Assembly (NCBI GenBank): GCA_030446715.1
Contig: JAUJMU010000002.1
Coordinates: 628,631 to 692,630, forward strand
Direction of reading: 5' to 3'
Origin: Cytophagales bacterium
Lineage (GTDB): Bacteria > Bacteroidota > Bacteroidia > Cytophagales > 172606-1
Length of the DNA: 64,000 nucleotides
The notes beneath the pieces are model-generated. The model made no database searches. It saw only the letters and a program-made list of their open reading frames with translations, and had not been told where the DNA came from. Positions 29,978-38,044 of this stretch are shown one piece after another (within the stretch, counting starts at the first letter, position 1; each line of letters opens with the position of its first letter). Both the position numbers and the translations under genes were made by a program.

Positions 29978-31810
29978 ATGAACAATCCCTATCTTTCGAT
30001 GCTCGCCACTGCCTGGCGTTATGCCCGGCATGAGCGAAAACGTTACATTTTGATTTACAGCATGTTTGTGCTGGCCAATCTAACCGCGGCGGCGCATCCG
30101 CTGTTGTACGGGTATTTTGTGGACAGCCTGCAGCGGGATGGTTCCAACGTGCTTTCCTATGCCTGGGTCTACGGGCTTGGTTACCTCGGCCTGCGGGTCG
30201 TGGAGTGGTGCTTTCACGGACCTGCCCGCGTAATGGAGCGGAAGCTGGCTTTCAACGTCAGCCGCAATTTTCTGGACGAACTTTACCACAAGGTATTGCA
30301 CCTTCCCATGAAGTGGCATCAGGATAATCATACCGGCGCCACCATCAGCCGGATGCAGAAGGCGTACGGGGCTCTCAAATCGTTCTTTCAGAATGGATTT
30401 GCCTACCTGCACGCGCTGTTCAAGTTTATCTTTTCCTTTGCGGCCATGCTGTATTTTGCGCCGGTGTTCGGTCTGATCGGTGTGCTGCTCGGCTTTCTGA
30501 CTGTGTGGGTGATCTTCAAATTTGATAAGCCCTACATCAAATCACTGAAAGAAGTTAATGAACGCGACCACAAGGTATATTCTACCCTGTTTGACAGCCT
30601 TTCCAACATCGTGACGGTGATCACCCTCCGGCTGGAAAAGCGCATGGAAACCAGCTTTATGAATAAGGTAATGGACGTGTTTCCGGCTTTCCGGCGCAAT
30701 GTCACCATCAACGAGTGGAAATGGTTTACGGCGCAGATGCTCATTGCCCTGATCTACGCCATCATTGTAGTCGGTTACGTATACCAGAACTACGTACCCG
30801 GCGAAACCTTTTACATGGGCGGCCTGATCATACTGCTGGGTTACGTCAGCCAGTTTACCAGCGTGTTCAATGACATTGCCGCCCAGTACACCCAGATCAC
30901 GCAGTTCAATACCGACGTGCAGACGGCTCATAAAATTGCGGAAGCCTACGACCAGGAACATCGCCCGGAGGCCACCGGCAATCTTCCGGCTGAATGGCAG
31001 AGCCTGAGCATTTCCAACCTGAATTTTATCCGGCCCGACAACGGACCAGGGCAGAAGCGGTTCAATGGCCTGCGCGACCTGCACATGCGGGTTCAGCGTG
31101 GTCAGCGCATTGCCCTGATCGGGGAAAGCGGCAGCGGTAAAAGCACGCTGCTCTCTCTGCTCAGAGGCCTGTACGTGCCGCAGGAGGGTGTGCAGGTATG
31201 CGTGGATGATGACCTCTCCGTTGATTTTGAAAGCATCCGCAACACAGTGACTCTTTTTCCGCAGGAACCCGAAATCTTCGAAAATACGCTCCTCTACAAC
31301 ATCACCCTTGGCCTGCCTTTCAGCGAAGAGGAAGTAATGCAGGTGTGTGAGGTAGCACAGTTTACCGACATCATACGGCAATTGCCCGACGGGCTGGATA
31401 CCGTTATTCAGGAGAAAGGTGCCAACTTCTCCGGCGGACAGCGGCAACGCCTTGCCCTTGCCCGTGGTATACTTGCTGCCCGGAGCAGCAGCATCATTCT
31501 CATGGACGAGCCCACCAGCAGCGTAGACCCCAAGACAGAAATGCAGTTGTACAACAAGCTTTTCAAAGCATTCACTGGTAAGGCCATTATTTCTTCGCTG
31601 CACCGCCTTCACCTGCTCAGTCAGTTTGACTACATCTACATTCTCCAGAATGGAAGAGTGATTGAAGAAGGAACCTTCGAGATACTGCGCTACAACAGCG
31701 AAACCTTTCAGGAAATGTGGCGTCACCAGCAGCAGGAACGGACCGACAGTACTGCCCCCGGTCAGGCGACTGCTGAAATCCCGCCTCAGTTGGTCCAGCC
31801 ACTAAGCTGA
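29978..31810 (+). CDS. ABC transporter, fused permease and ATPase (exporter type)
   Basis: This 610-residue half-transporter of the type IV exporter family probably acts as a homodimer in the inner membrane. The N-terminal 310 residues hold the membrane domain with about six helices (first around 25-45, last around 285-310). The ATPase domain has the Walker A motif GESGSGKSTLLSLLRG, Q-loop (TLFPQEPEIFENTLLYNITL), signature FSGGQRQRLALARG, Walker B ILMDEPTSSVD (acidic Glu present) and an H-loop (SSLHRLHLL). The substrate is not predictable; exporters of this type move lipids, peptides or drugs. It is transcribed alone, and it converges with the stand-alone receiver gene across 180 bp. Confidence 0.92.
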   Translation: MNNPYLSMLATAWRYARHERKRYILIYSMFVLANLTAAAHPLLYGYFVDSLQRDGSNVLSYAWVYGLGYLGLRVVEWCFHGPARVMERKLAFNVSRNFLDELYHKVLHLPMKWHQDNHTGATISRMQKAYGALKSFFQNGFAYLHALFKFIFSFAAMLYFAPVFGLIGVLLGFLTVWVIFKFDKPYIKSLKEVNERDHKVYSTLFDSLSNIVTVITLRLEKRMETSFMNKVMDVFPAFRRNVTINEWKWFTAQMLIALIYAIIVVGYVYQNYVPGETFYMGGLIILLGYVSQFTSVFNDIAAQYTQITQFNTDVQTAHKIAEAYDQEHRPEATGNLPAEWQSLSISNLNFIRPDNGPGQKRFNGLRDLHMRVQRGQRIALIGESGSGKSTLLSLLRGLYVPQEGVQVCVDDDLSVDFESIRNTVTLFPQEPEIFENTLLYNITLGLPFSEEEVMQVCEVAQFTDIIRQLPDGLDTVIQEKGANFSGGQRQRLALARGILAARSSSIILMDEPTSSVDPKTEMQLYNKLFKAFTGKAIISSLHRLHLLSQFDYIYILQNGRVIEEGTFEILRYNSETFQEMWRHQQQERTDSTAPGQATAEIPPQLVQPLS

Positions 31811-31990: not shown

Positions 31991-32458
31991 TCAGGAGAGG
32001 AGGCTCTGCCGCAGGTGGAACTCAAGTTGCCGGTTGGTTTTCTCCAGACTCTGAACTTTATTCTTCTCTTCCCTGCGGGTACTGTACAGTTCATAAGCTT
32101 TTCCGATCACCTCCCGCATATTAGCATCATCCCATGGCTTACTCAGGTACTGAAATATTTGTCCTTTGTTCACTGCATCAATCACGGCTCCAATATCCGA
32201 GTAACCAGTCAGCAGAATCCTTGTCGGATCCGGAAATAACGGAATGATAGATGACAAGAACTCTACACCAGTTGTTTCAGGCATCCGCTGGTCGGTGATG
32301 ATGACATGAATTTCCTGTTCATGTAATATCTTAAGTCCTTCATTGGCAGAAGAAGCTACAAATACGTTATAATCCAGCCGGAAATTAGCTTTAAATACAT
32401 AGAGATTGTGTAACTCATCATCCACGTAGAGCACATTTATACGATTTTGGGATTCCAT
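31991..32458 (-). CDS. Stand-alone receiver-domain response regulator
   Basis: This 155-residue protein is one CheY-like receiver followed by a short helical tail (REEKNKVQSLEKTNRQLEFH). The phospho-acceptor is the Asp of VIITDQRMPETTGVEF, the acidic pair is YVDDE, and the signalling Thr is in LLTGYSD with the conserved Lys in YLSKPWDD. The receiver is of the RpfG-related type (DPTRILLTGYSDIGAVIDAV). It is clearly paralogous to the receiver of the kinase at 36905-38044, sharing MP-TGV-F, DP-RILLT-Y-D and NKGQIF-YL-KPW. There is no output domain, so it probably works by protein-protein contacts. It diverges from the ThiF-like operon across 231 bp containing a 20-bp palindrome. Confidence 0.9.
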   Translation of the reverse strand: MESQNRINVLYVDDELHNLYVFKANFRLDYNVFVASSANEGLKILHEQEIHVIITDQRMPETTGVEFLSSIIPLFPDPTRILLTGYSDIGAVIDAVNKGQIFQYLSKPWDDANMREVIGKAYELYSTRREEKNKVQSLEKTNRQLEFHLRQSLLS

Positions 32459-32574
32459 ATATATAGCTTTGAAGAGTTTATTTATTCAGAGTAAGGTAAA
32501 TTTCATAACATGATTGCATAATTTCTTACATACATTTAATTGAGTAACAAATTATCCAATTTAGACATCTCCCT

Positions 32575-32594
32575 GATTGTTAATATTAACAATC
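32575..32594. promoter_or_regulatory. 20-bp perfect palindrome, candidate operator
   Basis: GATTGTTAATATTAACAATC is a perfect palindrome in the spacer between the divergent receiver gene and the ThiF-like operon, 96 bp before the 32690 start codon. A TATTTTTG (32606-32613) that fits the -7 consensus sits just downstream, without a good -33 partner, so the palindrome would overlap or flank a promoter. Confidence 0.5.
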
Positions 32595-32689
32595 GAAAAC
32601 ATTATTATTTTTGGGAGAAACCATAAGGTAAATATAGTGGCTTTCAGGCTCCCCCAAACACATCATATTTTGCCCAAATATTACTGTAC

Positions 32690-33811
32690 ATGGCATTGAC
32701 TCATATTCTACAAAAAGGCAGCAGCCATGTGAATAGTCTCAACAGCGGGTACCTTCCGGTCTTTTTCCGCATTGAAAGCCATACAGATCATCAGGCGCTT
32801 CAAAAACTCATGGAAAGCAATCCGGCCATCTCGGTATATGATGGCATTGAGGGACAGTTGGCGGAACTGGTGAAGGCTGCCAACCCTACCCGGCGCTTAT
32901 CTGCCGGAGAATTGACGGATGCTGTTAAAAAGCACCTCAGCGGAGTACAGTCTGAAGAATATGGAGTGTGGGTTTATTATCCATGGTCTGGCCGGCTTGT
33001 ACATATACTCGATGAAAAGGAGTTTATAGAATTGAGAACCAGCAGAAACCTTTATAAAATTACACGGGAAGAAAGGGAAATTCTGTCGAAGCAGAAAATA
33101 GGGGTAATCGGGTTGTCTGTCGGACAGTCCATTGCAGTTACCATGGCAATGGAGCGGACTTTTGGCGAAATTCGTCTGGCTGACTTTGACACCCTCGAAT
33201 TAACCAACATGAACCGGATCCGGACGGGCCTTCATAACCTGGGCGTTTCGAAGGTGGTGCTGGCCGCGAGAGAAATTGCCGAAATTGATCCTTTTCTGAA
33301 GGTTGTATGTTTTACAGAAGGCATCACGGAGGAGAACATAAATGATTTTTTGCTTAAGGATGGCAAACTGAATATTCTGATTGATGAATGCGACAGCATT
33401 GATGTAAAGATATACGCCCGGGTCCGGGCAAAGGAACATCGGATTCCGGTGGTGATGGATACAAGTGACAGGGGTATGGTAGATATTGAGCGCTTTGATC
33501 TGGAGCCTGAGCGGCCCCTGCTTCATGGTTTGATCGGAAATATTGAAAATGTTGATTTCAGTAACCTCACCGATGCTGAAAAAATACCTTACCTCGGTGC
33601 AATGGTAGGCCTGGATACACTTTCTCTACGGATGAAGTCATCATTGTCTGAAGTGGGTAAAACAATCAGAACATGGCCCCAGCTTGCCTCTTCTGTAGCA
33701 TTGGGCGGCGCTTTGGGCACCGATGTTTGTCGCAGAATTGCTCTTAACCTGTTTAGGGAATCGGGCCGTTATTATGTCGATCTGGATGAAATTATTGACA
33801 ATAAAAACTAA
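32690..33811 (+). CDS. ThiF/E1-like adenylyltransferase (Rv1355c-type)
   Basis: This 373-residue protein has a central E1/ThiF-type adenylation domain. Residues about 130-330 show the dinucleotide loop IGVIGLSVGQSIAVTMAM (an altered GxGxxG), the Asp-Asn-Arg block LADFDTLELTNMNRIRTGL, and GVSKVVLAAREIAEIDPFLK with the conserved Lys. IDECDSIDVKIYARVRAKEHRIPVV corresponds to the second Asp region. E1-like enzymes activate a carboxylate by adenylation; the best-named relatives are Rv1355c-family proteins, usually fused to nitroreductase-like domains absent here. The N-terminal 120 residues (ISVYDGIEGQLAELVKAANP) are unassigned. It is the first gene of a four-gene row, 115 bp before the acyltransferase-like gene. 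The acceptor and product are unknown. Confidence 0.78.
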   Translation: MALTHILQKGSSHVNSLNSGYLPVFFRIESHTDHQALQKLMESNPAISVYDGIEGQLAELVKAANPTRRLSAGELTDAVKKHLSGVQSEEYGVWVYYPWSGRLVHILDEKEFIELRTSRNLYKITREEREILSKQKIGVIGLSVGQSIAVTMAMERTFGEIRLADFDTLELTNMNRIRTGLHNLGVSKVVLAAREIAEIDPFLKVVCFTEGITEENINDFLLKDGKLNILIDECDSIDVKIYARVRAKEHRIPVVMDTSDRGMVDIERFDLEPERPLLHGLIGNIENVDFSNLTDAEKIPYLGAMVGLDTLSLRMKSSLSEVGKTIRTWPQLASSVALGGALGTDVCRRIALNLFRESGRYYVDLDEIIDNKN

Positions 33812-33926
33812 CTACTTTTTACCCTCTGTTTTCAACTTGTTATCCAATCTCAAATAGTACAATAAACCTCCTAACAAACATTTTATAACCTTGTGAATCG
33901 TACAATTTTTTTAAATTTCCCTTCAA

Positions 33927-34703
33927 ATGTTAAAAATACGTGCATTCCGGGCTGTAGATGAACCTGAAACCTGCGAAAAGTATATCGAAGGACACTCAAA
34001 GCTTCTCAAGATTTATTTTGGCATTACTCCGATCACAAGCTCTAAAGTTGAATGGGCCACCAATCCTGCTTCTTATGTAATTATAGCAGAATCACCGGAC
34101 GGTGAAAAAGTTTACGGAGGAGCAAGAATACAAGTGGCCGGAGGCTGCTATCCACTTCCCATTGAAGATGCCATCGGGAAAATGGATTTAAATGTATATG
34201 AGATGGTCAGCGAGTGCAGCAAGACTGGTTCTGGGGAATTATGCGGTTTGTGGAACTCGCGTGAAGTTGCCGGATTAGGATTGGGAAGTATTTTTTTGGG
34301 AAGAGTTGGTGTTGCCATTGCAGCGCAGCTTCAGTTAACTTCTTTGTTTGCCCTCTGCGCTCCGTATACCGTGGACAACTGCATGAGGATAGGTTTTACA
34401 GTTGAGCACTCTTTAGGAAGTGACGGCATGTTTTACTACCCTCACGAAAACTTTGTAGCTACAGCCCTGGTGCTTGACGATGTAAACAAGTTGCAGAATG
34501 CTAATCCGCCAGACCGGGAGGCTATCCTGGAGCTTAGAGAAAAGCCAAGGCAAAAGAAAACCGAAAGTGGCAAGAGGAGAAATTTTGAGATTGAATATGA
34601 TTTAAAATTATCAAGCTTCCATTACAGCGATTCTGAATTTTTACTGATCAATAGTTCCAGGAAGATATACAATTCATTGATGCGTCCAGAGTTGAAGCAT
34701 TGA
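33927..34703 (+). CDS. GNAT-fold acyltransferase, autoinducer-synthase/N-acyl-amino-acid-synthase-like
   Basis: This 258-residue protein has the layout of GNAT acyltransferases: an N-terminal half (MLKIRAFRAVDEPETCEKYI), a beta-hairpin with YVIIAESPDGEKVYGGARIQ, then YEMVSECSKTGSGELCGLWNSREVAGLGLG. In the last segment the conserved acidic/aromatic strand leads into the R-x-x-G-x-G/A-type pyrophosphate loop for CoA or acyl carrier protein. LTSLFALCAPYTVDNCMRIGF is the next helix-strand unit. The length and early arrangement recall acyl-homoserine-lactone and N-acyl-amino-acid synthases rather than small acetyltransferases; this is a similarity judgment, not a search. It lies between the E1-like gene and the sensor kinase (26 bp), so it may make the ligand sensed downstream. 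Confidence 0.6.
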   Translation: MLKIRAFRAVDEPETCEKYIEGHSKLLKIYFGITPITSSKVEWATNPASYVIIAESPDGEKVYGGARIQVAGGCYPLPIEDAIGKMDLNVYEMVSECSKTGSGELCGLWNSREVAGLGLGSIFLGRVGVAIAAQLQLTSLFALCAPYTVDNCMRIGFTVEHSLGSDGMFYYPHENFVATALVLDDVNKLQNANPPDREAILELREKPRQKKTESGKRRNFEIEYDLKLSSFHYSDSEFLLINSSRKIYNSLMRPELKH

Positions 34704-34729
34704 ATTTCTTCAATTCATAGTCAGGTTAT

Positions 34730-36889
34730 ATGAAAGGATTGCTTTTTAAAATTACTCTGATCATTTTAATTGGTCAAACAAGTCATTCGGCCAAGGCCAC
34801 CGTCGTTTTTTCCGATCCGGCACAATTGACTTATATTGGGAGTAACATTGGTATTCTTGAGGATAAAACGGGTAATTTATCCCTGGAGCAAGTTTTATCC
34901 TCGCCAGAAAAATTTAAATCAAGCAGTCAACAGGTACCTAACCTCGGAATCACACCTTATACTTATTGGGTAAAAATAATTATTCAAAACAAGAGTCAAT
35001 TATCTCCACTCCTGCTTGAGCTTGCCTATCCCACAATTGATGAAGTCACCTTTTATAGTCAATCTGCCGATGGTGGGTACGAGGCAACCCTGATGGCTGA
35101 ATATTTACATTTCTCTGAGAGAAAGTACCAGCATCAGAACTATATCTTTGCCTTACCTATTCAAAGTAATCAGACAAAAACAGTTTTCCTCCGAATCAGG
35201 AGCGGCGAACAGATTCAACTGCCGATCAAGCTGGGCTCACCACAGAAAATTTTTGAGAAAAACATCAGGGAGGAACTAATTTCAGGACTTTACTTCGGAA
35301 TAATAATGGTTATGTTTTTGTATAACCTGTTTCTGTTTTTCATTATTCGTGACCGCCTCTATCTTTATTATGTTTCCTATATTCTATTTGTGGGTTTAAC
35401 CCAGGCCTGCCTGCAGGGTTATACTTTTAAATACCTCTGGCCTGATTTTCCATGGCTGGCTATCCAAAGTACTTATCTGATTCCTATCTGTAGTGGCTGG
35501 GCTGTTGCGTTCTTCTTCAGACGTTTTCTTCAGTCCCCAAAATACATTCCAAGGCTGAACAAAGGGTTAAATATATTTATTATTGTTTATGCTATCTGTG
35601 GTCTGCTCAGCATTTTGCAATATTATAACCTGAGCCAGGAACTGCTTCAGTTCAATGCCATGCTAGGCTCTCTTTACATTTTGTATGCAGCGATTGTAAT
35701 TGCCAGAAAAGGTTACAGACCAGCCAAGGTTTTTTTGCTGGCATGGTCTATATTTCTGGCGGGTATATGCATATTTGTTTTAAGAAATTTTGATATTCTT
35801 CCTTACAACACTTTCACCTATTATATTCTGCAGATTGGCTCGGCGATCGAAGTTGTACTCCTTTCTTTTGCCCTAGCAGACCGCATCAATGCGCTGAAAA
35901 GAGAGAAAGAAGCGTCACAGGCTCAGGCACTGGAGATTTTGAAGGAAAATGAGCGGATTATCCGGGAGCAAAACGCCAGCCTGGATACCCGGGTAAAAGA
36001 AAGAACGCTGGAGTTGCAGGAATCAAACCGGGAGCTCAACACCACACTGCGCCGCCTGAAGGAAGCGCAGGCGCAACTGGTAAATGCCGAAAAAATGGCT
36101 TCCGTGGGTCAGCTTACGGCCGGTATTGCCCACGAAATCAATAATCCGATTAACTTTGTAAGCGCGGCAATGAAGCCGCTCCGGAGAAATATCGGGTACT
36201 TCCTTGAAATACTCAATAATTATGATCAGGCGGCAGCCCGGCCGGAAGTAAAAGACTCCTTTGGCGCAATCGAAGCCCTCAAGAAAAAATACGATATAGA
36301 GTACTGCAAGGAAGAGATAACCACCATTCTGCAGGGAATTGAAGACGGTGCATTCCGGACAACCGAAATTGTAAGGGGATTGCGTAATTTCTCGCGTCTG
36401 GATGAAGCTGAACTCAAACTTGCCAATGTGAATACAGGGCTTGATTCAACTATTATCTTGCTGCAGGGCAACCTCAACGGACGAATCAGGTTACACAAGG
36501 ATTACGGAGATATCCCGGAGATTGAGTGTTATGCCGGCAAGCTGAATCAGGTGTTCATGAACATACTTACCAACAGCATTCATGCGGTAAAAGCCAGGAA
36601 TCTGCCGCCTGGTGAAGGCAGCATTACCATCCAAACCCGGGACCGGGAGAATGAGCTGGTGATCAGTTTTCAGGATAATGGTATAGGCATGTCCGAAGCA
36701 GTAAAGAATAAAATGTTTGACCCGTTTTTTACAACCAAAGACGTAGGAGAAGGTACCGGTCTCGGGATGTCTATTGTTTTCAGCATCGTCCAGATGCATG
36801 AGGGGTCTATTTCAGTAGATTCACAGGAAGGAGCAGGAACCCGGATTACCCTTACCATTCCGAAGGCCTGTGCGGCGGTTGAAAAATGA
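34730..36889 (+). CDS. 7TMR-DISM sensor histidine kinase
   Basis: This 719-residue membrane kinase has a signal peptide (about 1-23) and a periplasmic 7TMR-DISM extracellular domain (about 40-165: YTYWVKIIIQNKSQLSPLLL, PLLLELAYPTIDEVTFYSQS). Seven membrane helices follow (about 188-390), then a coiled coil (395-450) with LDTRVKERTLELQESNRELN. The dimerisation/phospho-acceptor helix has His in GQLTAGIAHEINNPINF (about residue 467), and an HATPase_c domain has N-box NQVFMNILTNSIHAV, G1 FQDNGIGMS and G2 GEGTGLGMSIVFSI. The DISM domain may bind carbohydrate-like or other small ligands. It is followed after 15 bp by a receiver-kinase gene, its likely phosphorelay partner. Base composition is AT-richer than the flanking genes. 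Confidence 0.9.
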   Translation: MKGLLFKITLIILIGQTSHSAKATVVFSDPAQLTYIGSNIGILEDKTGNLSLEQVLSSPEKFKSSSQQVPNLGITPYTYWVKIIIQNKSQLSPLLLELAYPTIDEVTFYSQSADGGYEATLMAEYLHFSERKYQHQNYIFALPIQSNQTKTVFLRIRSGEQIQLPIKLGSPQKIFEKNIREELISGLYFGIIMVMFLYNLFLFFIIRDRLYLYYVSYILFVGLTQACLQGYTFKYLWPDFPWLAIQSTYLIPICSGWAVAFFFRRFLQSPKYIPRLNKGLNIFIIVYAICGLLSILQYYNLSQELLQFNAMLGSLYILYAAIVIARKGYRPAKVFLLAWSIFLAGICIFVLRNFDILPYNTFTYYILQIGSAIEVVLLSFALADRINALKREKEASQAQALEILKENERIIREQNASLDTRVKERTLELQESNRELNTTLRRLKEAQAQLVNAEKMASVGQLTAGIAHEINNPINFVSAAMKPLRRNIGYFLEILNNYDQAAARPEVKDSFGAIEALKKKYDIEYCKEEITTILQGIEDGAFRTTEIVRGLRNFSRLDEAELKLANVNTGLDSTIILLQGNLNGRIRLHKDYGDIPEIECYAGKLNQVFMNILTNSIHAVKARNLPPGEGSITIQTRDRENELVISFQDNGIGMSEAVKNKMFDPFFTTKDVGEGTGLGMSIVFSIVQMHEGSISVDSQEGAGTRITLTIPKACAAVEK

Positions 36890-36904
36890 TTTCGCAGAAA
36901 CTTT

Positions 36905-38044
36905 ATGGCTGAGGAACAAATACGTGTTTTATACATTGATGATGAAGTCCAGAATCTGAATTTATTCAAGGCATGCTTCCGTCATGACTTTCATATCTTT
37001 CTGGCAAAGTCCGCCGGTGAGGGTGTTGCCCACCTTGAGCAGCAGGATATCCACGTAATTGTTTCTGACCAGAAAATGCCCGGTATCACGGGAGTGCAGT
37101 TTTTTGAATCTATTCTGGAAAAATACCCTGACCCGGTGCGCATACTGCTGACCGCCTACACCGATGCAGAGGCATTGATTGATGCAATCAACAAAGGACA
37201 GATTTTTCGTTACCTGCGCAAGCCCTGGGAGGAAGAAGACCTCCGGATGACTATCCGCAGCGCCTTCCAGAGCTTCAGTATCAATCGCAAACTGCTGGAG
37301 CAGAACGCTGAACTGCAGAAGAGAAATGATGAACTGAATCGGTTTGTGTACAGTGCCTCCCATGACCTGAAAGCACCGCTTGGGTCCATTCAGGGGATTC
37401 TGGACCTGTCCAAAATGGAAGGAGAAGAAGACAATGCAGCGCAGTACCTGTTACTGATCGAAAAAAGCGTGAAGCAACTGGAAGCCTTCATCCATAATAT
37501 TATTCAGTACTACAAGAATACTCAGTTAAAGGAGCAGATTGATCAGATCGACTTCCAGAAAATGGTGGCCGAAATTCTGGAAAGCTATAAATACTACCAG
37601 TTTACTCCTCTCATCGACTTCCGGATAGAAATTTTGCAGGAGGAGCCATTCTTTGGTGATACCTTCCGGATCCGTACAATTCTGAACAACCTTCTTTCCA
37701 ACGCCATCAAGTATCAGCGTAAGGATGAACCAGATAAATACGTGATAATCTCTGTTAAGACCTCCCCCGAAGAGGTATTGATCAGAGTAGAAGACAACGG
37801 AATTGGTATTCCCGCTGAGCACCTGAACCAGATTTACAATATGTTTTTCAGGGCAACTTCGGAAAACAGTGGCTCTGGAATGGGCCTGTACATCCTCAAC
37901 GAAGCTCTTTCCAAAATCAGTGGCAAGATAAAGGTCAGCTCCCATCTTGGTGCAGGCACTACTTTTGAGCTGATACTACCTAACAGGTCAGAGCAAGCGT
38001 ACTCCCAGAACGAGTCGGTATCAAACACTCCTGAAAGGAGATAA
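36905..38044 (+). CDS. Receiver-histidine kinase (REC-HisKA-HATPase)
   Basis: This 379-residue soluble protein starts with a receiver (residues 6-125: VLYIDDEVQNLNLF, phospho-Asp in VIVSDQKMPGITGVQF, Thr in LLTAYTDAEALID, Lys in YLRKPWEEE). A coiled-coil linker follows (LEQNAELQKRNDELNRF), then a kinase core with His in SASHDLKAPLGSIQGILD (about residue 154) and an HATPase_c domain (LNNLLSNAIKYQRK, VEDNGIGIPAEHLNQIYNMF, GSGMGLYILNEAL). There is no membrane helix. The receiver is a close paralogue of the stand-alone regulator at 31991-32458. It is translated right after the sensor kinase (15-bp gap) and may receive phosphate from it through its own Asp. Confidence 0.9.
   Translation: MAEEQIRVLYIDDEVQNLNLFKACFRHDFHIFLAKSAGEGVAHLEQQDIHVIVSDQKMPGITGVQFFESILEKYPDPVRILLTAYTDAEALIDAINKGQIFRYLRKPWEEEDLRMTIRSAFQSFSINRKLLEQNAELQKRNDELNRFVYSASHDLKAPLGSIQGILDLSKMEGEEDNAAQYLLLIEKSVKQLEAFIHNIIQYYKNTQLKEQIDQIDFQKMVAEILESYKYYQFTPLIDFRIEILQEEPFFGDTFRIRTILNNLLSNAIKYQRKDEPDKYVIISVKTSPEEVLIRVEDNGIGIPAEHLNQIYNMFFRATSENSGSGMGLYILNEALSKISGKIKVSSHLGAGTTFELILPNRSEQAYSQNESVSNTPERR

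Follow-up and report, generated by a model that had tools for sequence, protein, structure and literature searches.

Linked acyltransferase, ThiF-like cyclase and 7TMR-DISM histidine kinase genes as a candidate acyl-signal circuit of Bacteroidota

Do the two small-molecule enzymes and the sensor kinase that are encoded side by side in a Cytophagales genome belong to one circuit, in which the enzymes make a signal that the kinase reads? This question is raised by five open reading frames at positions 31991-38044 of a 64,000-nucleotide stretch of DNA (the window, by which we mean this whole stretch; Cytophagales bacterium, GenBank assembly GCA_030446715.1, contig JAUJMU010000002.1, positions 628,631 to 692,630 of the forward strand) that belongs to a 6.4-Mb draft genome. 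A sequence-only reading of the window had proposed that an E1/ThiF-like enzyme and an acyltransferase make or modify a secreted acyl or amide molecule sensed by the adjacent 7TMR-DISM kinase. We consider it probable, at roughly two chances in three, that the locus is a self-contained circuit in which an N-acyl amino-acid or oxazolone signal would be sensed by this kinase, judging from a comparison with relatives in which the product-defining enzyme, either the N-acyltransferase (NAT) or a flavin oxidase (FDO), is exchanged together with the sensor half of the kinase in both gene orders. The features of the locus, in window coordinates, are as follows:

31991-32458, minus strand: stand-alone receiver protein, 155 amino acids (Pfam Response_reg, E 1.9e-17), divergent from the operon
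32690-33811, plus strand: ThiF/E1-like cyclase, 373 amino acids (ThiF, E 1.5e-17; NF005901), without a flavin oxidase half
33927-34703, plus strand: NAT, a LuxI/FeeM-fold N-acyltransferase of 258 amino acids and probable N-acyl amino acid synthase (fold of the AlphaFold 2 model, AF2)
34730-36889, plus strand: 7TMR-DISM histidine kinase, 719 amino acids (Pfam 7TMR-DISMED2, 7TMR-DISM_7TM, HisKA and HATPase)
34841-35236, plus strand: periplasmic DISMED2 domain of this kinase, amino acids 38-169 (Pfam; AF2 model similar to the RetS periplasmic domain)
35270-35884, plus strand: seven-helix membrane (7TM) domain of this kinase, amino acids 181-385 (Pfam DISM_7TM, E 2.4e-59; helices of the AF2 model)
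33927 to about 35854, plus strand: equivalent of the exchanged cassette, NAT plus kinase amino acids 1 to about 375 (alignment with relatives)
36905-38044, plus strand: receiver-histidine kinase, 379 amino acids (Pfam Response_reg, HisKA and HATPase)

The four plus-strand genes run in the order ThiF-like cyclase, NAT, DISM kinase and receiver-kinase with intergenic gaps of 115, 26 and 15 bp and face the receiver gene, exactly as first described, and Pfam together with NCBIfam (best 25 matches each for the signalling proteins) confirms the earlier labels of E1/ThiF-like protein, 7TMR-DISM kinase, receiver-kinase and stand-alone receiver. HisKA of the DISM kinase scores 24.5 bits, slightly below its cut-off of 26.9; DISMED2, DISM_7TM and HATPase lie above theirs. 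Active-site residues are intact: His468 of the DISM kinase, receiver Asp55 and His153 of the receiver-kinase and W43, R67 and E104 of the NAT are invariant among 134 aligned sequences, as are Asp56, Thr84 and Lys107 of the stand-alone receiver among 112 aligned relatives. The cassette equivalent at 33927-35854 is placed by alignment, the exchange itself having been seen in relatives and not in the window genome.

What would the two enzymes make? Residues 17-371 of the ThiF-like protein match the NCBIfam family NF005901 ("Rv1355c family") with 485.9 bits at a cut-off of 476, and the match spans positions 7-341 of the 722 in the profile, i.e., the cyclase half only. The protein is 40-45% identical to actinobacterial Rv1355c/ThiF relatives, and Rv1355c-family proteins of Rhodococcus and Mycolicibacterium plasmids (42% and 40% identical) share its adenylation-site residues. 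Its nucleotide-site residues G138, G141, G145, D165, N173, N175, R176, K188 and D235 are invariant across the 134 aligned sequences, the mapping of TrzS D217 onto D235 being uncertain. Judged by these matches, the window protein is the cyclase half of the Rv1355c/TrzS family. The E1 fold would also suit ubiquitin-like conjugation, with the ThiF/E1-like protein activating a protein tag, and PADLOC E1-E2 profiles do match weakly (best E 3.5e-7); the Rv1355c-family match is far stronger, however, and a Pfam scan of the five genes and two flanking genes found no E2, tag or JAB-like (deconjugase) domain, so that we discount this role almost entirely.

Most relatives have the ThiF domain fused to FDO, a flavin desaturase, in proteins of about 740-800 amino acids, and the window shares a short form with many others. 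A separate FDO elsewhere in short-form genomes was looked for at E 0.001 in a controlled search that found a homologue in 0/20 of them (the window's own included) and in 3/3 fused controls. On a tree of 161 cyclase domains, 158 of which have a clear fused or short state, this state changes at least 10 times (shuffled-label mean, 47), so the unit occurs both with and without the desaturase. Genomes of one genus carry a second ThiF locus (L049, L054, L055, L056, L062, L063, L066, L069, L070 and L079), which is immediately preceded by another FeeM-like acyltransferase and has no DISM kinase of the type found here. Another Rv1355c-family gene, on a Rhodococcus plasmid (L275:2820-6968), has a GGDEF gene nearby, comparable to the cyclic-di-GMP genes near the trzAS locus (PMC12856293).

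The acyltransferase had been called the weak link of the original idea, and by sequence it is weak: neither Pfam nor NCBIfam places the product of 33927-34703 in a family above cut-off, and a sequence comparison with the PDB gave no hit, so that an assignment to LuxI by sequence fails and the fold search alone responded. The fold does uphold the assignment. For the AF2 model (pLDDT 86, built on an alignment of 25 sequences), Foldseek gave RpaI, FeeM and BjaI as best matches, and VIA-align gave Z scores of 16.6 for FeeM (rmsd 2.7 over 176 residues), 15.9 for TofI and 15.5 for LasI. The structure search against LuxI, FeeM and GNAT families that had been proposed thus puts FeeM and acyl-homoserine-lactone synthases first; because other GNAT enzymes follow close behind (Z 15.4 and lower), the fold points to an N-acyl amino-acid synthase without proving it, and we regard this as the probable identity of the NAT. 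In sequence it shows a marginal similarity to the neighbour of Rv1355c in Rhodococcus (E 0.031, 22% identity over 140 amino acids), and no sequence match was found to a Streptomyces GNAT adjoining a ThiF. Elsewhere, L258:5593-7442 contains a single 616-amino-acid open frame, cut by the contig end, with three successive acyltransferase stretches.

An enzyme pair of this kind has been described for oxazolone synthesis. The partner in the Rv1355c/TrzS pathway is Rv1356c, that is TrzA, an amino-acid N-acyltransferase (available text of PMC12856293), and oxazolones arise by N-acylation of an amino acid followed by ATP-dependent ring closure (PMC12856293, PMC10404671); TyzA has a fold resembling FeeM and BjaI (PMC10404671), and both papers cite de Rond 2021 for the OxzAB N-acyl oxazolone pathway. 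As in TrzAS, TyzACB and OxzAB, a LuxI/FeeM-type N-acyltransferase adjoins a ThiF-like cyclase of the same subfamily in the window, and most Bacteroidota relatives also resemble these systems in having FDO fused after the cyclase, as in Rv1355c-family proteins. In contrast to them, the window has no flavin oxidase and joins the enzymes to a DISM kinase, a receiver-kinase and a receiver in a five-gene unit; such a kinase is not mentioned for the TrzAS/TyzACB pathways in the available text of PMC12856293 and PMC10404671. A paper on stieleriacines describes clusters of ThiF with a nitroreductase, and the terms "histidine kinase" and "two-component" are absent from its main text (PMC12479983). Because the defining flavin oxidase is missing, the window locus is not a full member of the oxazolone clusters; to judge by its cyclase and NAT, it should work like one up to ring closure. 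The sequence-only reading had conceded that its idea would fail if these two products belonged to families of unrelated function; what emerged, N-acylation and ring closure, is the chemistry that the idea needs.

Do the five genes form a unit? Of the 390 genomes examined from the order, 86 carry a ThiF relative, spread over 24 of 129 genera, and 97 neighbourhoods of the order were fetched, the window locus not among them, of which 9 were excluded as cut by contig ends. All five genes are present in 67 of the 88 full-length neighbourhoods, a recurrence far beyond chance, four genes in 8 and ThiF plus NAT only in 3; the divergent upstream receiver is labelled in 79/97. A NAT accompanies ThiF in 86 of the 97 neighbourhoods and a DISM gene is found in 81 of these 86, with two of the other five ending at a contig edge. 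Among named genomes, NAT and DISM kinase are present, some in shuffled order, in 56 of 59 full-length loci, the genera including Chitinophaga, Pedobacter, Mucilaginibacter, Daejeonella and Parapedobacter; these loci come from the best 80 of at least 527 relatives, a set biased to close ones, of which 21 were excluded as cut. At least five of the 80 (L178, L179, L182, L231 and L254) are the same contigs as order-set loci and were left out of the cyclase tree, L179, L231 and L254 falling within the 59. When 395 genomes of the phylum were sampled, 7 matches fell outside the order. One of these (L157) is an FDO half only and was not counted as a ThiF locus; the others keep NAT and kinase in 6/6 cases, with NAT preceding ThiF in four and following it in two. 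The comparison of neighbourhoods that had been suggested as a check thus finds the genes syntenic in relatives, and that they stay together despite altered gene order speaks for a functional unit. When 1276 genes were clustered without supervision, with the window counted as a locus, three clusters (ThiF, NAT and receiver/kinase) spanned seven or eight of nine sampled bacterial families; all other clusters with at least 3 loci are confined to at most 3 of the nine, such as a PorX-like block in one family or a 129-amino-acid gene about 6.2 kb downstream (with a weak receiver score) in three.

Beyond ThiF loci, ACYLTRANSFERASE goes with the receptor: in a NAT profile search over 380 genomes of the order, 7/7 strong NATs (>200 bits) located away from ThiF loci have a DISM protein no more than one gene away, and no DISM neighbour was seen for the weak ones (<200 bits; L258, L259, L260 and L261). 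ThiF-less clusters with NAT, FAD oxidase and DISM receptor are L158 and L262-L267. In six ThiF-less clusters scanned with Pfam (L158, L160, L162, L164, L266 and L267), a FAD_binding_4 oxidase lies beside the NAT, that of L162 being cut by the contig end and outside the 7 strong ones, and BLAST found the same oxidase in L262 (60%) and L264 (73%). A SpoIIE phosphatase output replaces the kinase in three scanned receptors of such clusters (L159, L160 and L163; by cluster L159/L266, L160/L265 and L163/L267), and the L158 receptor has a kinase output. Four genomes of one genus (L268-L271) lack ThiF and NAT at a site with the upstream neighbours typical of their family, and keep the receiver, DISM kinase and receiver-kinase there; such receiver-only loci would suit cells that detect a signal from other producers, or a receptor that serves another purpose. 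Open reading frames of 117-146 amino acids between receiver and kinase in these loci are alike only in their first residues, gave no convincing match and were set aside as spurious.

How does the sensor vary with the enzymes beside it? We compared tree distances across 111 loci (dereplicated from 134), with the resulting correlations being descriptive since pairs of loci are not independent. The sensor 7TM part co-varies with NAT at r 0.66 and with the cyclase at 0.60, as against 0.37 with its own kinase half, and the kinase half follows the receiver and kinase parts of the receiver-kinase at 0.84 and 0.83. Partial correlations are 0.42 for 7TM-NAT (half-samples, 0.26 to 0.54) and -0.03 for 7TM-kinase, a pattern that holds within clusters. 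With four flanking genes as species control (26 loci of one family), the residual correlation is 0.92 for 7TM-NAT, 0.76 for 7TM-cyclase, 0.01 for 7TM-kinase and 0.75 for kinase-receiver. The contrast is milder outside that family, where 228 pairs with kinase identity of at least 0.80 gave 0.89 for NAT-7TM and 0.59 for kinase-7TM.

The family's 7TM-NAT co-variation arises because NAT and sensor half are exchanged as a block in one genus. Its 20 dereplicated species share a single kinase cluster and split into three NAT types (9, 10 and 1 species), and the sensor type matches the NAT type in 20/20. The types were analysed across 31 loci of the family (near-duplicates L095 and L104 dropped; L106, of the same genus, cut and unused). 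At kinase identities of 0.82-0.95, NAT identity is about 0.80 in 78 same-type pairs and 0.45 in 73 different-type pairs, and kinase residues 1-360 are 0.30-0.84 identical in the former versus 0.11-0.41 in the latter, while receiver, ThiF-FDO, kinase beyond residue 400 and receiver-kinase differ by at most 0.06 between the two sets. Types A and B are scattered over the species, since they change at least 6 times on the flanking-gene tree, about as often as with shuffled labels (mean 6.6). Of 192 pairs with kinase identity of at least 0.80, 76 agree in both NAT and sensor, 98 differ in both, 18 combine a NAT below threshold with a similar sensor and none combines the same NAT type with a different sensor type. 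The sister species L081 and L082 are 0.74-0.96 identical in DNA over the roughly 10-kb locus and its flanks, except for a 1.8-kb stretch at 0.49-0.64 that reaches from the NAT start to receptor helix 7. Where the order is NAT-ThiF-FDO-kinase (15 loci), it is FDO that goes with the sensor, at 0.94 for 7TM and 0.95 for DISMED2, compared with 0.76 for its own cyclase half and 0.49 for the kinase half, and the block edges between L223 and L250 lie at the cyclase/FDO border and after the 7TM region. Relatives of the window thus swap a synthesis gene together with the sensor half and keep kinase half and flanks, the mark of a pherotype cassette.

Block exchange and co-variation suggest indirectly that the kinase may respond to the product of the synthase, and the proposal of the sequence-only reading gains support by comparison, short of proof, from the joint exchange of NAT or FDO with the sensor; the secretion, ligand and output that it implies are inferred. 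Two other readings take linkage and exchange differently. In one, the kinase would answer an unrelated cue such as stress or membrane state and induce an oxazolone or N-acyl amino-acid lipid that it does not sense. DISM receptors do sense varied cues, and operon linkage alone would look identical. The tryptazolone authors tie oxazolones to stress and call their physiological role a major unresolved question (PMC12856293, available text). We nevertheless find this regulated biosynthesis unlikely, because the sensor half swaps with one of the enzymes, NAT or FDO, while its own kinase half stays in place, and because receptors kept without enzymes have nothing to regulate at the locus. In the other reading, the enzymes would make an antimicrobial or membrane-active lipid against rivals, with the kinase setting self-protection and the types being weapons with matching sensors. 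N-acyl tyrosine relatives are antimicrobial (PMC12856293, discussion), and block exchange fits weapon-sensor pairs as well; the clustering, however, with its clusters unannotated, has no further gene family and so no protection gene that recurs in more than 3 of the nine bacterial families, and we consider self-protection distinctly improbable.

Several observations weigh against a circuit of synthase and cognate sensor. Across the 111 loci, the kinase half also tracks NAT (0.53) and cyclase (0.54), and the enzyme that co-varies best with the sensor is in both gene orders the adjacent one. Where NAT is not adjacent, its raw identity correlation with the sensor (0.81, 15 loci) is below that of FDO (0.94), and given kinase, cyclase and receiver-kinase it falls to 0.18 (permutation p 0.084; 13 loci, tree distances). 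Pairs with a similar NAT and a different sensor exist, e.g., L251/L223 with 0.80 for NAT and 0.41 for 7TM. The comparison of L251/L151 with L223 had looked suggestive of FDO state shaping the sensor; over 172 pairs, presence or absence of FDO showed no general effect (mean residual 0.004). Among the 88 full-length neighbourhoods of the order, 10 have ThiF without the NAT or kinase of the module; L057, L064 and the fragmentary L136 have NAT and ThiF without a DISM gene on a contig that continues; and the receiver-only loci retain the kinase without the enzymes. Outside ThiF loci, 12 of 20 stretches around DISM matches lack a NAT and 8 have one, the 12 being mostly only 4-5 kb long. Neither an exporter nor a DNA-binding output gene could be tied to the unit, and tryptazolones are described as mostly intracellular, with acyl-tryptophans being extracellular (PMC12856293, available text).

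Because the exchanged enzyme always adjoins the sensor, sequence cannot fully separate linkage from function. A fast-diversifying sensor half might simply drag neighbouring enzyme DNA along in recombination tracts with no functional match, as the adjacency in both gene orders and the weak corrected co-variation of separated NATs would allow. Yet the block edges are non-random, lying at the NAT start, inside helix 7 and at the cyclase/FDO border, the 192 pairs contain no case of the same NAT type with a different sensor type, and the NAT-DISM linkage persists in clusters with another tailoring enzyme and another output, for which reasons we give such an artefact the same low standing as self-protection.

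The modelled sensor (34730-35929) has a pLDDT of 90, and its periplasmic domain matches RetS (E 8.3e-7). The seven-helix part weakly resembles human Wntless (E about 4e-4) and GPCRs, which may reflect only a shared arrangement; Wntless binds lipid and combines seven helices with a luminal domain. The closer tracking of NAT by the 7TM part than by the periplasmic domain (0.66 versus 0.42) would fit a lipophilic ligand in the membrane part of the receptor, a speculation to be read beside the fact that the periplasmic domain is also more diverged.

Some features in and around the loci stand apart from these arguments. A perfect 20-bp palindrome, GATTGTTAATATTAACAATC, lies at 32575-32594 between the receiver and ThiF genes, and its core occurs once in the window; it was rejected as a conserved operator, since the two nearest relatives lack it in the corresponding intergenic region. 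Directly upstream of the locus, 29978-31810 encodes an ABC transporter with fused membrane and ATPase domains that could be an exporter; it was rejected as the exporter of the unit, as it is in no largest shared cluster and none spanning two bacterial families. In L041, the draft genome of a close relative, stops break the ThiF and acyltransferase frames through draft error or decay. At L045:9989-14475, two tandem DISM kinases follow the NAT, with a partial further relative downstream where the receiver-kinase is expected.

How would the circuit work? The NAT would acylate an amino acid, with acyl-CoA or acyl carrier protein as the acyl donor, and the ThiF-like enzyme would activate the carboxylate with ATP and close the N-acyl amino acid to a five-membered oxazolone. 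The fused flavin oxidase of most relatives would also desaturate the oxazolone, a step missing in the window genome, whose end product would then be a saturated oxazolone or an open N-acyl amino acid. This lipophilic product may exit the cell or partition into the membrane, where the periplasmic/7TM half of the adjacent DISM kinase would recognise it, and the kinase would pass phosphate to or through the receiver-kinase and the stand-alone receiver.

Circuits of comparable logic are known. CqsA/CqsS and RpfF/RpfC/RpfG use a small lipophilic signal with the synthase gene beside that of a multi-pass sensor kinase, as proposed here for a locus in which synthase and sensor kinase are encoded together across species, although the synthase families and the sensor fold are different and the locus has no HD-GYP output gene. 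In the Gram-positive peptide systems comQXP and agr, synthesis gene and sensor half vary as a block on a conserved kinase half; the relatives studied here show the same block variation, with an acyltransferase or FDO in place of the peptide genes. With LuxI/LuxR, the locus has the acyltransferase fold in common, but it has a ring-closing ATP-dependent enzyme and a kinase instead, and none of the five proteins matches the LuxI family or LuxR in Pfam at E up to 1, so that the circuit is indeed unlike LuxI/LuxR, as had been supposed. The further supposition that no described system has such content holds in part: the enzyme pair is described, and the signalling half was not found in print. No report tying these enzymes to a DISM kinase turned up in the open full-text literature, a search that leaves most subscription papers uncovered and is no proof of novelty. 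As far as these comparisons go, what would be new is a circuit of synthase and sensor kinase with pherotype-like exchange that uses oxazolone-type chemistry.

On a broader view, to which we would give even odds, Bacteroidota possess a widespread pheromone system in which exchangeable pairs of enzyme (NAT or FDO) and receptor half create species- or strain-specific dialects of N-acyl amino acids or oxazolones; a GPCR-like seven-helix receptor on a common kinase would read them through its periplasmic domain and helices 1-6; the receiver-only lineages and the clusters of NAT, FAD oxidase and SpoIIE-receptor would be part of it. L081 and L082 offer a natural pair for studying cross-talk, as the enzyme-sensor block is their sole sharply divergent stretch over about 10 kb. 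The locus supplies a candidate receptor beside oxazolone enzymes in genera with cultured strains (Chitinophaga, Pedobacter, Mucilaginibacter and others), and the pheromone reading, if true, would give oxazolones their missing function, which the tryptazolone authors suspect to lie in signalling (PMC12856293). We know of no acyl-signal circuit in the phylum Bacteroidota, which would then gain one of its own.

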